A DNA stretch of 64,000 nucleotides from positions 248,001 to 312,000 of the forward strand of contig NZ_JAIWPJ010000004.1 of the NCBI RefSeq assembly GCF_020515625.1. The letters are read 5' to 3'. Every line of letters starts with the position of its first letter. Positions within the stretch are counted from its first letter, which is position 1. Shown here piece by piece: positions 17,564 to 64,000 of the stretch. Both the position numbers and the translations under genes were made by a program. This DNA is from Natrinema amylolyticum (GTDB lineage: Archaea > Halobacteriota > Halobacteria > Halobacteriales > Natrialbaceae). The notes beneath the pieces were generated by a model. It made no database searches. It was not told the origin of the DNA and was given only the letters and a program-made list of their open reading frames with translations.

Positions 17564-17704
17564 TGATGAGCTATCCCGTCAGAATATAAGCTCTATCATC
17601 TGTCTACTATATACATATAAATCGTGACGGTTACGACTCATCGTGAAGTTACGACTCGGCTAGTAGCGAGGCCGTCTTCCAGAGTGAATCGGTGATGAAA
17701 CACC

Positions 17705-17742
17705 ACCGTGTCCGCTGTTCTATGCACCGTGCTCGCTGTTCT
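17705..17742 (+). repeat. Origin repeat family B, two copies in tandem
   Basis: ACCGTGTCCGCTGTTCT (17706-17721) followed by ACCGTGCTCGCTGTTCT (17726-17742). They share the core CCGCTGTTCT with copies at 17840, 18069 and 19607, all clustered around the orc gene at 18140. Likely initiator-binding (ORB-like) elements. Confidence 0.6.
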
Positions 17743-17839
17743 GTCATATCTGTTCGGTCTGGAGAAACGACTCACTCAGGCTACACCGGTGGGAACTGAT
17801 GAGATCATTCAAAGAGCAGTAAAAGAGGACACACCCACC

Positions 17840-17858
17840 CCACTATGTCCGCTGTTCT
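17840..17858 (+). repeat. Origin repeat family B
   Basis: CCACTATGTCCGCTGTTCT, the best match to the family consensus CCACTnnGTCCGCTGTTCT. It lies about 280 nt upstream of the first orc gene in an AT-rich region. Confidence 0.6.
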
Positions 17859-18057
17859 CTTCCGAAAATCAGATGAGTTGACGAATGAGAATATATTACA
17901 TTCTGTGAAACGTAGAAATATAAAGCAGGAGTTGCCATTTGGACTAGCTCACACCAACCCCTATTAAATATTCCTCTTTCTAGAGCTTCCTTCTAATGGG
18001 CGTCCTTCTCAGAGAGATTACTGCGGACATGGTGGGGTGGGTGTGTACCGGAGTCTA

Positions 18058-18109
18058 ATATAAACCACGAGAACAGCGGACACTCCGGACAGTGTGGTTT
18101 TATAAACCA
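18058..18109. promoter_or_regulatory. orc promoter region with a palindrome enclosing an origin repeat
   Basis: TATAAACCAC (18060-18069) and GTGGTTTTATA (18093-18104) form an inverted repeat. Between them is a reverse-orientation family B repeat (AGAACAGCGGACA at 18069-18082). The second arm contains the TATA-like TTTTATAAA, about 35 nt before the orc start at 18140. This fits autoregulation of the initiator gene by its own product. Confidence 0.5.
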
Positions 18110-18139
18110 TGCTGCTAGAGGGACGCACAGACAACCCGA

Positions 18140-19399
18140 ATGAGTCTCTTCGAACGCGACACTGAAATCTACAGAAATCGCGATGCGTTACGAGAAGATT
18201 ACCAGCCGAAACAGCTCGTCGGTCGTGACGAAGAAATTCAAATGTATCAGGCTGCGTTACAGCCCGTAATCAACGGTGAGCAGCCAAACAACGTCTTTCT
18301 CTACGGGAAAACCGGTGTCGGAAAGACTGCAGCCACCAGATATCTCCTCTCTCACCTCGAGGAAGACGCCGGACAGTACGACGACATCGATCTCCATCTC
18401 ACTTTTCTCAACTGTGACGGTCTCACATCGTCATACCAAATCGCGACGCGGCTGGTCAACGAACTTCGAGACGAGCCGAACCAGATCAGTACCACTGGGT
18501 ATCCCCGGGCGACGGTCTACGAAATGCTATGGGACGACCTCGACGAAATCGGCGGCACCAATCTGATCGTCCTCGACGAAGTCGACCACGTCGACGACGA
18601 TTCGATCCTCTATCAACTTCCTCGAGCCCGTGCGAACAACAATCTCTCTGCGGCGAAGATCGGAATCATCGGCATCTCGAACGACTTCTCGTTCCGCGAT
18701 GACCTCTCCCCGAAAGTCAAAAGCTCGCTCTGTGAACAGGAGATTCACTTCCCCGCCTACGACGCGGGCGATCTCCAGAAGATCCTCGAACAGCGTGCGG
18801 CAGTCGCGTTTCACGATGACGTCCTCGACGACGCAGTGATTCCATTGTGTGCAGCGTACGGCGCAAAAGACGCCGGTGATGCCCGTCAGTCGATCGATCT
18901 CCTCATGAAGGCCGGCGATCTCGCTCGAGAAGAGGACGAGGCAACGATCGTCACTGAGAGCCACGTAGAGGCGGGTCGCCACGACTTGGAACGCGGACGT
19001 ATCGAAGAGGGTATTAACGGGCTCACGCAACACGGCCACCTGGTACTGTACTCGTTGCTTACGCTCCATCTCCAGGACGAAACGCCGATTCGGTCTCGGG
19101 ACGTCCGTCCCCGCTACACCAACTTCGCACAGCGGGCCGGACGAGATCCGCTCGTCCCGCGTCGAATGCGCGATCATCTGTCGGAACTCGCTATGCTCGG
19201 ACTCGTTTCGGTCACTGAGCGTAATGAAGGTCGGCGTGGAGGAACGTATCGCGAGTATACGCTCGACATGGACGTCGAACTCATCGTTTCATCACTCGAT
19301 GAGATCGTCGACGATGTCGGTGTCCACGACTCCATTCAAGATCATTTGATTGATGCCGACGCGACCGATGAGAATACATCATTATCTGAATATTATTGA
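18140..19399 (+). CDS. Orc1/Cdc6-type replication initiator (first copy)
   Basis: A 419-aa AAA+ initiator. Walker A is 'GKTGVGKT' (about 57-64), Walker B 'LIVLDEVD' (about 147), sensor 1 'GISND' (about 178) and sensor 2 'GDARQSIDLL' (about 250). A C-terminal winged helix (about 300-400) would contact origin DNA. All ATPase residues are present, so it should be functional. It binds origin repeats as an ATP-controlled initiator and recruits the MCM helicase. Family B repeats lie on both sides of the gene. It differs strongly from the neighbouring initiator at 20013-21368, which has its own repeat family. Confidence 0.95.
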   Translation: MSLFERDTEIYRNRDALREDYQPKQLVGRDEEIQMYQAALQPVINGEQPNNVFLYGKTGVGKTAATRYLLSHLEEDAGQYDDIDLHLTFLNCDGLTSSYQIATRLVNELRDEPNQISTTGYPRATVYEMLWDDLDEIGGTNLIVLDEVDHVDDDSILYQLPRARANNNLSAAKIGIIGISNDFSFRDDLSPKVKSSLCEQEIHFPAYDAGDLQKILEQRAAVAFHDDVLDDAVIPLCAAYGAKDAGDARQSIDLLMKAGDLAREEDEATIVTESHVEAGRHDLERGRIEEGINGLTQHGHLVLYSLLTLHLQDETPIRSRDVRPRYTNFAQRAGRDPLVPRRMRDHLSELAMLGLVSVTERNEGRRGGTYREYTLDMDVELIVSSLDEIVDDVGVHDSIQDHLIDADATDENTSLSEYY

Positions 19400-19606
19400 C
19401 TATCTCTATACTATCGGATAAGAATTATCAGGGGCCAGTGTTACGTGATTCATCCCGACCTACACCACTATGTCCGGAGTAACCTCGGTCTTCAGGGCCA
19501 GTAGGTGGAGTATTTATGATAGTTAGATAGAAAGACATATTGCAGAACGCTATCGTTCTATCGAAGCTCACTCTACTACATATATAACAGATATATTACG
19601 GTCAGT

Positions 19607-19626
19607 ACCACTCCGTCCGCTGTTCT
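19607..19626 (+). repeat. Origin repeat family B, downstream copy
   Basis: ACCACTCCGTCCGCTGTTCT, matching the copies upstream of the first orc gene. It borders the AT-rich tract between the two orc genes. Confidence 0.6.
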
Positions 19627-19893
19627 GCCTCTGTCAGAAGCCGATCGGTTGTAGAGCGGACCGCGTACGATTCTTCCGTACACTGTTCAGTTGTTCCCGG
19701 TTCTGAGACTATCGTCGAGTTCGGGACCGAACGGGGAACACTTCGATAAAGGTGTGTCTGGTTTCTCAGTAATTGAAAAACCGCTAATAGACGAAATCGT
19801 CACTGCTCGAGTGGAAATAGGACGACTATCTACCCATATCCCATAGCCACACATTGCTATATTTCCGTCTCTCAGCGGTTATTAGCCGATATC

Positions 19894-19943
19894 ACACATC
19901 GATAGAGGTGTGTGTAGTACTGAGAAAACACATCGATAGAGGT
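19894..19943 (+). repeat. Origin repeat family A, two direct copies
   Basis: CACACATCGATAGAGGTGTG (19894-19913) and AACACATCGATAGAGGTG (19926-19943). The core CACATCGATAGAGG recurs six more times upstream of the second orc gene. These two sit downstream of that gene's 3' end, on the side facing the AT-rich tract. Confidence 0.7.
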
Positions 19944-20012
19944 GCCCGCCAGACCAAACGATGTTACAGCGATAGCGAGGCGAAATCCCACAGCTGTAGC
20001 CGTCGGAGGATG

Positions 20013-21368
20013 TCACGTCTCGTTTCGAACCTGTGCATTGACGACGCTCGTCACCTCTTCCGATGAGACGATGCCGATACGGGAATCTTCTCGAAGCGTT
20101 TCGAGGATCGTTCCGGGCCGTTCGCCGAACTGGAACTCGAGGAACATTCCGGAACTCGGTCCGTGGCTCCGGCGTTCGAAGTCGACGAGCGAGTACGTCG
20201 TCATCTCTTTCATCTTGTTGACGTAGGTCTCCTGGTGATACTGTTCGGCATCGATCGCGTCCGTGAGGAACTGATATACTCTGTATCCGGTCGTACTGCG
20301 AGCGGATTCGTCGTCGGTCTCAGACGCCACTGCTGCCGTCGCATAGAGACACAATTTCTTCTGCGTACTGATACCGCGGACGACTTCGAGGACCCGGTTC
20401 TTCTCGACCTTGTCCTGCGCTTCCCGAACGTGATCTTCACCGACACTTCCGTCACCTTCACGTTCTGCGAGCTCGCCGGCGACGCGCATCAGATCGATCG
20501 CCTTCCGAGCATCGCCGTGAGTCTGGGCCGCAAAGGCCGCCGCCAGCGGGATAACGTCCTCGTCGAGAACGTCCTCGTAGAAGGCGTCCCGACGGCGACG
20601 GAGGATCGACTGCAGCTGGTTCGCATCGTAGTCGTCGAAATGGACGTCTTCGGGCGTGAACGAACTCAGGGCGCGACTGCCAACTGATTCCATCATTTTC
20701 GTATCGTTAGAGATCGCGACGACGGAGACGTGCGCGGTGAGATCGTTCGTCGCACCGGCTCGTGAGAGTTGATAGAGCAGTCGAGAGAACGCCGGTTCTT
20801 GTTTGTCTCGCCGCCCGACGAGCATATCGAGTTCGTCGAGGACGAACACCGCTGAATCGAAGTTCTCGTTGACGATACGATAGAGTTCGTCCCACTTTTC
20901 TTTCGTCGCGACACCGTGTTTCGGGACTTCGACCGCGACGTCGGCTTCGTCTGCAGCGCGACTCGCTAGTTCGTAGACTGCGACGCCGAGGGTATCGAGA
21001 TCCTGGCAGTTGACTTCGATCGTTCCGAATCGGATATCGCGCGTCTCACAGATTTTACTGATATTCTTACAGACGGCTTTCGTGATGAGTGACTTCCCAG
21101 TCCCTGAGGGGCCGTAGAGAAAGAGATTCGGCGGACGGTTGTCGCCGAGAGCGACACGGAGCATTTTAGTGACTTCTTGGAGCTGCTCGTCGCGGCCGAC
21201 GATCCGATCTTCTTCGACGATATGGTTCGGATCGAGGAGCGATCGATCGCGAATGAGCCCCTCCTGTTGATCGAACTCCAGCAACATGTCCTCGATCGAC
21301 TGTGATCCCTCCTCCGACGTCCCCGCCCCATCTCGAGGATCCTCGAAGTCGTCCATACGGTGGCTCAT
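20013..21368 (-). CDS. Orc1/Cdc6-type replication initiator (second copy)
   Basis: A 451-aa AAA+ initiator on the strand opposite to the first. Walker A is 'GPSGTGKS' (about 85-92), Walker B 'VFVLDELD' (about 170), sensor 1 'AISNDT' (about 205) and sensor 2 'GDARKAIDLM' (about 275). A winged helix occupies about 330-445. The first 50 residues are acidic and variable, as in many haloarchaeal Orc proteins. The start is taken at the Met at 21368; one five codons upstream is also possible. A family A repeat (21394-21410) sits right before the start, so repression by its own product is plausible. Confidence 0.95.
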   Translation of the reverse strand: MSHRMDDFEDPRDGAGTSEEGSQSIEDMLLEFDQQEGLIRDRSLLDPNHIVEEDRIVGRDEQLQEVTKMLRVALGDNRPPNLFLYGPSGTGKSLITKAVCKNISKICETRDIRFGTIEVNCQDLDTLGVAVYELASRAADEADVAVEVPKHGVATKEKWDELYRIVNENFDSAVFVLDELDMLVGRRDKQEPAFSRLLYQLSRAGATNDLTAHVSVVAISNDTKMMESVGSRALSSFTPEDVHFDDYDANQLQSILRRRRDAFYEDVLDEDVIPLAAAFAAQTHGDARKAIDLMRVAGELAEREGDGSVGEDHVREAQDKVEKNRVLEVVRGISTQKKLCLYATAAVASETDDESARSTTGYRVYQFLTDAIDAEQYHQETYVNKMKEMTTYSLVDFERRSHGPSSGMFLEFQFGERPGTILETLREDSRIGIVSSEEVTSVVNAQVRNET

Positions 21369-21393
21369 ACAGGGGAGGACCAAAAGTGTTGGC

Positions 21394-21410
21394 CACCTCT
21401 ATCGATGTGT
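21394..21410 (-). repeat. Origin repeat family A, promoter-proximal copy
   Basis: CACCTCTATCGATGTGT, inverted relative to the copies at 19894-19943. It lies 25 nt upstream of the second orc start, overlapping the expected promoter. Confidence 0.7.
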
Positions 21411-21540
21411 GACTTCCGGATTAACGGCTGATCCGCCGTAATTTTACGGAATGGGTGCGACAAGCATAGGAATAGAATGAAACGAACGACGAAGTGTTCC
21501 AAGGCGAGTCGATTCGACCGAGACGGTTCCGGAGACAGAC

Positions 21541-21739
21541 ACCCCTCTATCGATGTGTTTGCGGCCGCGAGGGGAAGGGGGTGATTGACGACCCTCAACG
21601 ATACTCGACCGATACTAGAACCTCGCTCTCCAGGTATTACGCAGAAGAGGGACTGAAGCGCGCTTTTCCGTTCTCTATTATACTATATTCCTAGACTAGA
21701 CCTAGACTAGAGACCCCCACACCCCTCTATCGATGTGTT
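21541..21739 (-). repeat. Origin repeat family A, two copies (21541-21559, 21721-21739)
   Basis: Both read ACCCCTCTATCGATGTGTT and are exactly 180 nt apart. They have the same orientation as the promoter-proximal copy. Confidence 0.7.
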
Positions 21740-21916
21740 CGATGTGTTTCGACTCGTTCGTATTCCGTTGCTTTCTCACCAACACTGTCTTCGTACTCTC
21801 TTACGGACAGAGTTCTCTCTAAACATGCTTCTTACCCCATTCAAAACCCATATTTCAGTAAATCATCTCCTCTCCCTCTACTGGGATCCCGTTCTCCCTC
21901 CGTCCCTTTACTACAA

Positions 21917-22125
21917 AACACATCGATAGAGGGGTGTCTCTGCATCTCGTCTCGTTCTCTCGCTCCCTCGAGTAATAGCGTCGCTACTCCAAACAGATCG
22001 ATAGAGGTGAGTATTTCAGTTTTCTCTCGGTTCTTTCTCAATCCTCTCTCAGTTTTCTTCCGATTGGTGGCCGCCCCGCTCGAGACGCGGGTGACTTTTG
22101 GAAAAACACATCGATAGAGGGGTGT
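21917..22125 (+). repeat. Origin repeat family A, three copies (21917, 21991, 22103)
   Basis: AACACATCGATAGAGGGGTGT at 21917-21937, a diverged AAACAGATCGATAGAGGTG at 21991-22009, and AACACATCGATAGAGGGGTGT at 22105-22125. They are inverted relative to the 21394-21739 group. The stretch between the two groups (about 21740-21915) is pyrimidine-rich and may be the unwinding region. Confidence 0.7.
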
Positions 22126-24421: not shown

Positions 24422-24496
24422 TAGCGGGAGGTAGATTTGAACTACCGGTCTGCGGGTTATGAGCCCGCCGGAATCTCCTGGCTATCCCATCCCGCT
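24422..24496 (-). tRNA. Initiator tRNA-Met (CAT)
   Basis: 75 nt with a complete cloverleaf on the minus strand. The anticodon loop reads CTCATAA between stems ending GGG and CCC, the three G-C pairs typical of initiators. The acceptor stem begins A-G-C-G-G-G and ends with T-A, giving the A1-U72 pair of archaeal initiator tRNAs. The T arm is GGTAGTTCAAATCTACC. No intron. An essential gene, which supports a chromosomal location. Confidence 0.95.
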
Positions 24497-60270: not shown

Positions 60271-61743
<1,473 letters not shown>

Positions 61744-61837
61744 ACAGACCGGGACCAGGCCGTCGTGCCTGGCCCACCTTAACTCGTGGCGCTTTGCGCC
61801 ACGCGGTTCACGTTCGATCGACCACCGTATGGCCGAT

Positions 61838-61865
61838 CGGGCACCTTTGAACTACCAAGGCTAAC
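61838..61865 (+). other. 3' half of the 16S processing stem (bulge-helix-bulge)
   Basis: CGGG, CACC, a TTT bulge, then GAACTACCAAGGCTAAC, complementary to 60135-60162. Confidence 0.85.
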
Positions 61866-61899
61866 GCTTCATCCCTGTCCGCCCAGTGTGGGCGGACGT

Positions 61900-61971
61900 G
61901 GGCCCATAGCTCAGTGGTAGAGTGCCTCCTTTGCAAGGAGGATGCCCAGGGTTCGAATCCCTGTGGGTCCA
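61900..61971 (+). tRNA. tRNA-Ala (TGC)
   Basis: 72 nt in the 16S-23S spacer. Acceptor arms GGGCCCA and TGGGTCC with discriminator A, anticodon loop TTTGCAA and T arm CAGGGTTCGAATCCCTG. No intron. tRNA-Ala in this spacer is the rule in haloarchaea. Confidence 0.97.
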
Positions 61972-62202
61972 TGTCTCGGAGGACAACCGAATCGTGCCCC
62001 TTAAGTGGGAGACGCGACTTCGGTTTAATCCGAACAACGAACCAATGCACCACCCCGTGTAAACGCGGGTGGGAAGGGTTAATGCATGCCGCGTCTACGG
62101 CGTGCAGATGAGACCGTGTGTACGTGTAGTCCAGGCGTCCACTGGACCCGTTCCCGGGTCACTACGTGATCGCACTCTGTGCGATCGCCGATCCGATGAA
62201 CG

Positions 62203-64000
62203 TGGCTACTGTGCCAGCTGGTGGATCGCTCGGCTTGAGAGCTGATGAAGGACGTGCCAAGCTGCGATAAGCCCAAGGGAGCCGCACGGAGGCGAAGAAC
62301 TTGGGATCTCCGAATGGGAATCCCCACCGCAATTGCTTCGCGCAATGGGGAACGTCGAGAATTGAAACATCTTAGTATCGACAGGAAAAGAAAGCAAACG
62401 CGATGTCGTTAGTAATGGCGAATAAACGCGACACAGTCCAAACCGAAGCCTTCACGGGCAATGTGGTGTTCGGGCTGACTCTCATCAGCAGAACGGCGAC
62501 GCGAAGTCTCTTGGAATAGAGCACGAAACAGGGTGACAGTCCCGTACCGTCGACAAGTACGCTGTGCGTCAGTCCCAGAGTATCGGGGGTTGGATATCCC
62601 TCGTGAATATCGCGGGCATCGACCGCGAAGACTAAACACTCCTCAAGACCGATAGCGAACAAGTAGCGTGAGCGAACGCTGAAAAGCACCCCACGAAGGG
62701 AGGTGCAATAGGGCGTGAAATCAGTTGGCGATGGAGCGACAGGGCACACAAGGTCCCGGACAAAATGAATCAGGTGCGAACCTGTAGTAAGAAGTTTGGG
62801 AAGCCGGTGTTCTGTCGTACGTTTTGAAAAACGAACCAGGGAGTGTGCCTGTTTGACGAGTCTAACTCGATTATCGAGGAAGGCGCAGGGAAACCGATAT
62901 GGCCGCAGTGCTTTGCACCAGGGCCACCGTGTTCAAGCGCGGGGAGTCAAACGGGCACGACCCGAAACCGGACGATCTAGGCGTGGGCAAGATGAAGCGT
63001 GCCGAAAGGCACGTGGAAGTCTGTTAGAGTTGGTGTCCTACAATACCCTCTCGTGACCTACGTCTAGGGGTGAAAGGCCCATCGAGTCCGGAAACAGCTG
63101 GTTCCAACCGAAACATGTCGAAGCATGACCTCTGCCGAGGTAGTTTGTGGGGTAGAGCGACGGATTGGGGGACCGCACTCCGAGAGGAGTGCGCCCCCCT
63201 GTCCAACTCCGAACCTACAAACGCCGTTTGACGCAGGGAGTCCGGTGCACGGGGTAAGCCTGTGTACCGTGAGGGAGACAACCCAGAGCTGGGTTAAGGT
63301 CCCCAAGTGTAGACTAAGTGCGATCGAAGGTGGTCTCAAGCCCTAGACAGCCGGGAGGTGAGCTTAGAAGCAGCTACCCTCTAAGAAAAGCGTAACAGCT
63401 TACCGGCCGAGGTTTGAGGCGCCCAAAATGATCGGGGCTCAAGTCTACCACCGAGACCTAGCAGTGCGGTTCATACCGCAATCTTGTAGGTTGGCGTTCT
63501 GTTCGGGTGGAAGCACGGGTGAGAACTCGTGTGGACCGTTCAGTAACGAAAATCCTGGTCATAGTAGCAGCGTTAGTCGGGTTAGAACCCCGACGGCCGA
63601 ACGAGTAAGGGTTCCTCAGCAATGCTGATCAGCTGAGGGTTAGCCGGTCCTAAGTCAGCCCGTAAGTCGAAGCTGACAACAGGGAAATAGGTTAATATTC
63701 CTATGCCAGTGTGCACTCAAAGCTGACGCTTTGGGGCCGCCTGAGCCGGGTTTTCGCCCGGTCGAACTGTCGAAGAGCGTGGAAGCCGTAATGGCACGAA
63801 GCGTTCGAATGGCAGAATCGCGCAAGTCAGGTCTACCCAGAGCCCGTGAAAAAGCGAGCACACTGTCCGTACCGAGATCCGACACAGGTACTCATGGCGG
63901 CGAAAGCCAAGGTCTGTCGGGATCAACCGACGTTAGGGAATTCGGCAAGTTAGTCCCGTACGTTCGCAATAAGGGATGCCTGCCTCGCGAAGAGGCAGGT
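62203..64000 (+). rRNA. 23S ribosomal RNA, 5' part
   Basis: Starts near 62203 at TGGCTACTGTGCCAGCTGG and proceeds with GGACGTGCCAAGCTGCGATAAGCC, typical of haloarchaeal 23S rRNA. The gene runs past the window end, so about 1100 nt are missing. The exact 5' end is accurate to a few nucleotides. Confidence 0.95.

Follow-up and report, generated by a model that had tools for sequence, protein, structure and literature searches.

The 64,000 nucleotides of Natrinema amylolyticum DNA analysed here (the 'window') run from base 248001 to base 312000 of contig C4 (313 kb) in a 4.7-Mb genome, and contain a tail-to-tail pair of intact Orc1/Cdc6 initiator genes: orcA (18140-19399, plus strand) and orcB (20013-21383, minus strand). 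Each gene is accompanied by its own family of origin recognition boxes (ORBs), and the locus very probably represents two complete haloarchaeal megaplasmid origins, placed tail to tail on a single replicon by plasmid fusion or by the capture of an origin module. Haloarchaea are thought to gain many origins per replicon by capturing extrachromosomal elements; at this locus, in a conserved arrangement, two origins that elsewhere serve singly as the sole orc locus of megaplasmids lie within 4.5 kb of one another and can be separated one by one, so that questions concerning replicon fusion and shared control become directly testable. The component parts are already known, and as far as the literature shows the novelty lies in two complete origins of different kinds being conserved side by side (published accounts of neighboring orc genes of unlike type were sought and none was found, which is no proof of absence).

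A sequence-only reading of this DNA had proposed two different Orc1/Cdc6 genes, each with a repeat family of its own, and that proposal is borne out. Both products exceed the TIGR02928 cut-off of 181.3 bits (437.6 bits for OrcA and 424.3 bits for OrcB), are longer than 300 amino acids, and carry AAA+, Cdc6 lid and winged-helix domains (Pfam Cdc6_lid and Cdc6_C). The Walker A and Walker B motifs read GKTGVGKT and LIVLDEVD in OrcA, where a winged helix was also recognized, and GPSGTGKS and VFVLDELD in OrcB. Neither a frameshift nor a stop was seen in orcA or orcB. The interval previously given for orcB (20013-21368) is correct for an ATG start, with the gene extending to 21383 from a TTG. The two proteins are only about 30% identical and their ORBs are unrelated, and a recent duplication was accordingly rejected as their source; the genome as a whole encodes approximately 12 members of the orc1/cdc6 family. 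The features of the locus, in order, are as follows.

17700-17721, minus strand: ORB-A copy (repeat and motif searches)
17721-17742, minus strand: diverged ORB-A, AGAACAGCGAGCA (repeat and motif searches)
17829-17860, minus strand: left-hand ORB-A of the ori-A inverted pair, G-string present
17861-18014, no strand: AT-rich stretch inside the inverted ORB-A pair (38-39% GC), the likely unwinding element of ori-A
17930-17950, plus strand: conserved 21-bp block AGTTGCCATTTGGACTAGCTC within the ori-A AT-rich stretch
18015-18046, plus strand: right-hand ORB-A of the ori-A inverted pair, degenerate, G-string present (ACTGCGGACATGGTGGGGTGGG)
18070-18099, plus strand: ORB-A immediately preceding the TATA-like TTTTATAAACC of orcA, a probable autoregulatory site
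18140-19399, plus strand: orcA, 419 amino acids, Orc1/Cdc6 initiator of the oriP-cdc6K (pHH400) type
19605-19626, minus strand: downstream ORB-A, in the inter-orc gap
19738-19757, plus strand: downstream ORB-B, diverged (2 mismatches; position conserved in relatives)
19894-19913, plus strand: downstream ORB-B
19928-19947, plus strand: downstream ORB-B
20013-21383, minus strand: orcB, 456 amino acids from TTG, alternative ATG start at 21368, pL131 type
21391-21410, minus strand: ORB-B some 23 bp before the ATG of orcB, a probable autoregulatory site
21539-21558, minus strand: ORB-B of ori-B
21719-21738, minus strand: ORB-B of ori-B, left of the inversion point
21739-21917, no strand: stretch separating the opposed ORB-B clusters (45-49% GC), the likely unwinding region of ori-B as judged from the ORB layout
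21918-21937, plus strand: ORB-B of ori-B, right of the inversion point
21993-22012, plus strand: ORB-B of ori-B, 1 mismatch
22106-22125, plus strand: ORB-B of ori-B

The ORB-A family has the core AGAACAGCGGACA, to which the best copies add a G-string (..GTGGGGTGGG); the core GTCCGCTGTTCT is exact at 17710, 17847, 18070(-) and 19615, with a variant at 17731. Allowing at most one mismatch, four ORB-A sites occur in the 64 kb where 0.125 would be expected, and the exact 13-mer is found three times in the entire genome, every time within this locus. The ORB-B family (AACACATCGATAGAGGGGTGT, with the motif CACATCGATAGAGG) comprises seven exact copies and one with a single mismatch, together with a ninth, diverged copy; its eight sites at no more than one mismatch compare with an expectation of 0.025, and again all seven of the exact sites in the genome lie within the locus. 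These counts, measured against simulations, and the genome-wide restriction of the sites to this locus rule out chance repeats.

The region upstream of orcA displays the canonical layout of a haloarchaeal origin, with inverted G-string ORBs around DNA of 38-39% GC. The ORB-A repeats noted in the sequence-only reading are real, while its account lacked the degenerate copy that forms the right arm of the pair, which reads ACTGCGGACA followed by the G-string and is the inverted mate of the left arm (88% over 32 nt). In a five-genome alignment, this degenerate copy is kept in the four other genomes, and the ORB pair, the promoter ORB and the AT-rich stretch are all conserved. The 21-bp block AGTTGCCATTTGGACTAGCTC is distinct from the ORB and is identical in 5/5 of the aligned Natrinema-group genomes; a TACGGACTARCTC-like (GGACTARCTC-like) version of it also precedes orcA, by roughly 200-220 bases, at 14 of 59 loci from other, more distant genera (L154-L218). 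Upstream of orcB, three ORBs point in one direction and three in the opposite direction, and this layout recurs in species that possess orcB only. The earlier tally of eight ORB-B copies (two downstream, three reversed and three forward) stands, save for the omission of the diverged downstream copy, but the description of this arrangement as 'unusually rich' does not, because most orcB-only origins likewise have 6-10 ORBs distributed to either side of the gene. Both families are indeed present in the gap between the genes, where their sites do not interleave; the gap had been called AT-rich, and the lowest GC at the locus is confined to 17850-17999 (38-39%) and 19500-19599 (33%), against 61% for the contig.

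The occurrence of the two orc types was followed through 125 genomes of the family, in which orcB was counted at an identity of at least 82% and orcA at an identity of at least 74%. By these thresholds orcB is present in 37 genomes and orcA in 27; both occur in 14, adjacent to one another in six and on different contigs in eight, and no genome of the 125 contains two copies of either one. Such a pattern would be expected for two compatible plasmid groups. ORB-B was found at 30/30 of the orcB loci surveyed and ORB-A at 26/26 of the orcA loci with at least 74% identity; ORB-A is absent from OrcA relatives at 63% identity or below, and at loci with only one of the modules the motif of the other is absent at up to one mismatch. 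Comparison with the origins of related species, as the sequence-only reading had suggested, also reveals each module by itself with its own ORBs. In Halostagnicola larsenii the A module is the sole orc locus of one megaplasmid (CP007056) and the B module that of another (CP007057), and further single-module replicons are pHH400 (A), pL131 (B) and N. salinisoli CP084470 (B). Given that A and B each occur alone elsewhere together with their ORBs, and that the type of ORB tracks the type of gene, the two are best regarded as separable origins.

Adjacency of the A and B modules is limited to six genomes of the Natrinema group, with five arranged tail to tail and one head to head. The tail-to-tail arrangement is shared by N. 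amylolyticum, Natrinema sp. SYSU A 869 (G072), N. versiforme JCM 10478 (G076), N. versiforme BOL5-4 (G077) and N. zhouii (G078); a thiamine pyrophosphate (TPP) enzyme gene adjoins orcA, and the context TPP enzyme-orcA-orcB is also present in the last three of these. In Natrinema sp. SYSU A 869, the gap is longer because of an inserted IS200/IS605 tnpA and TnpB (L149:10947-12630). The head-to-head genome (G066, L113:7587-12352) may have undergone rearrangement of the order, or else the joining may have happened more than once. The six paired OrcA proteins form a single clade (support 91/86), and monophyly of the six paired orcB genes is rejected (approximately unbiased test on DNA, p=0.009). 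The simplest reading is that module A arrived once, next to a B origin already in place, and that exchange, loss and rearrangement came later. Among the paired genomes, dN/dS is 0.03-0.08 for both orcA and orcB, so that both genes are under strong purifying selection, and with dS values of 0.2-1.2 the pair must be considered old as well as constrained.

By analogy with the oriC2 and oriP-cdc6K systems described below, the ORBs upstream of each gene would serve for the firing of that module, and those downstream would restrain it. Each Orc is predicted to bind the inverted, G-string-bearing ORBs upstream of its own gene, whereupon the AT-rich DNA between them would open and MCM would be loaded; the promoter ORB of each orc gene would mediate autoregulation, and the ORBs in the gap downstream of each gene would titrate the cognate Orc and thereby hold initiation down. 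The pair itself would have arisen in Natrinema through the addition of an A-type origin to a B-type replicon, whether plasmids fused or an origin module was captured. If both origins fire, the inner forks would meet within about 4 kb, and since the modules are approximately 3.5-4 kb apart the pair would still act as one bidirectional initiation zone.

Several alternatives were weighed against this account. The sequence-only reading had left open a composite origin or two origins fused side by side. A true composite, in which both Orcs are jointly required and act on both repeat families, might be suggested by the close spacing and by the presence of both families within a shared gap; however, it would leave neither module complete by itself, and there are replicons whose one orc locus is a complete A or B module, the two ORB families are unrelated and do not interleave, and the A and B partners come apart in evolution. 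The composite was rejected on the first of these grounds and is very improbable, whereas two origins lying side by side are well supported. The pair might also be a neutral by-product of cointegrate formation, with one module already decaying, and the mobile element lodged in the gap of Natrinema sp. SYSU A 869 and the altered gene order of the head-to-head genome are what such a history could leave behind. The absence of frameshifts and stops from both genes, and the purifying selection maintained over the divergence of the paired genomes, make this improbable, if somewhat less so than a composite.

A more serious competitor proposes that one module fires while the other is dormant, retained in reserve or for a role in incompatibility and regulation; its anatomy would be the same as that of two working origins. 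Inactive or dormant orc-linked origins are documented in H. hispanica (oriC4 and oriC5; PMC3528665), and a dormant origin is likewise reported in Hfx. mediterranei (PMC4595724). At the present locus the right ORB arm of module A is degenerate, as dormancy would allow, but that arm looks alike throughout the paired species, in which the ORBs and internal elements of the two origins are also conserved, and both orc genes are strongly constrained; a dormant partner is thus plausible without being the favored explanation. Some observations also weigh against the picture of two joined, complete origins. Linkage between gene and ORB is imperfect: one orcB relative (G021, 82% identity) is without ORB-B at up to one mismatch (L144), and another locus (L062) has just one copy. 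The GC skew along the contig shows no sharp switch at the orc locus and gave no usable origin signal, the firing of either origin in this strain is a prediction, and fusion and module capture are indistinguishable from these data.

Other closely spaced orc genes offer some context for the tail-to-tail arrangement. In 33 genomes, 12 orc pairs are separated by less than 4 kb, comprising eight convergent, three tandem and one divergent pair, where the random expectation for convergence is one in four. Four of the eight are the Natrinema pair, and the convergent pairs span up to five separate combinations; since several of the pairs share ancestry, the excess is suggestive rather than proven. In one genome (G001) an orcA (74%) converges with a 49% relative of orcB, and in another (G104) an orcA (78%) converges with a 62% relative of orcA; in each case the partner is served by a different ORB family of its own, which recurs upstream of it and within the gap. 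Two such convergent pairs, in which either gene is linked to ORBs of its own and some of these lie in the gap, occupy L129:7945-12750 and L130:8276-12336, and tandem pairs were seen at G055:C2:54211-57048, G101:C5:15138-19625 and G084:C1:3549362-3554048. A broader, speculative proposal, which we consider unlikely, is that the tail-to-tail pairing of unlike initiators is a recurrent, selected megaplasmid architecture, in which both origins are kept only as one initiation zone, titration clusters meet in the gap, and two incompatibility groups are excluded.

Farther along the window, a tRNA-Met gene lies 2.3 kb from ori-B (24422-24496, minus strand); in relatives, the surroundings of the paired origins yielded no tRNA. 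An rRNA operon (16S, tRNA-Ala, 23S) occupies 60271-64000, starting 38 kb rightward from the origins, and continues to the end of C4. Its 16S gene is the sole one found in the assembly, and C4 may be broken or collapsed at this end. The contig thus ends in the only assembled rRNA operon, yet stretches of it resemble the megaplasmids of relatives.

The closest known counterpart of module A is oriP-cdc6K of Haloarcula hispanica pHH400, whose initiator is 74.1% identical to OrcA and is also preceded and followed by the ORB-A motif (seven sites); it has autonomously replicating sequence activity, and its knockout was not obtained (PMC3528665). Although the ORB motif is shared, that identity falls below the threshold of at least 80% used to define Orc families (PMC3528665), so module A is named as being of 'oriP-cdc6K type' and not as a strict family member. 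Module B corresponds to the orc locus of Natronomonas pharaonis pL131, with an Orc identity (85.5%) above the same threshold and a common ORB motif that flanks its orc likewise (nine sites). In contrast to the present locus, pHH400 is without a B module and pL131 without an A module, the orc of each being the only one on its plasmid. The oriC2-cdc6E/oriC2D system of H. hispanica resembles each half of the locus in having an origin upstream and an ORB cluster downstream of the initiator gene, with the downstream cluster restraining oriC2, probably through titration of Cdc6E (PMC3936714), but it involves one initiator and one ORB family rather than two. Haloarchaeal origins each depend upon a co-located cdc6, and one origin per replicon suffices (PMC3936714). 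With the Natrinema pair one could test directly how specific the initiators are for their origins, whether neighboring origins are both active, whether downstream ORBs titrate, and whether plasmids of two incompatibility groups are shut out by a fused replicon. Further parallels are Hla_3512 and Hwa_HQ2959A, where two candidate origins with two ORB families occur at one orc locus (PMC3528665, Fig. 3) and the shared ORB, TAACAGCGGAAACAGTGGGGTGGGGGGGT, resembles ORB-A; those loci have one orc gene only and a second ORB family without an adjacent initiator, whereas here each family is joined to an initiator of its own.

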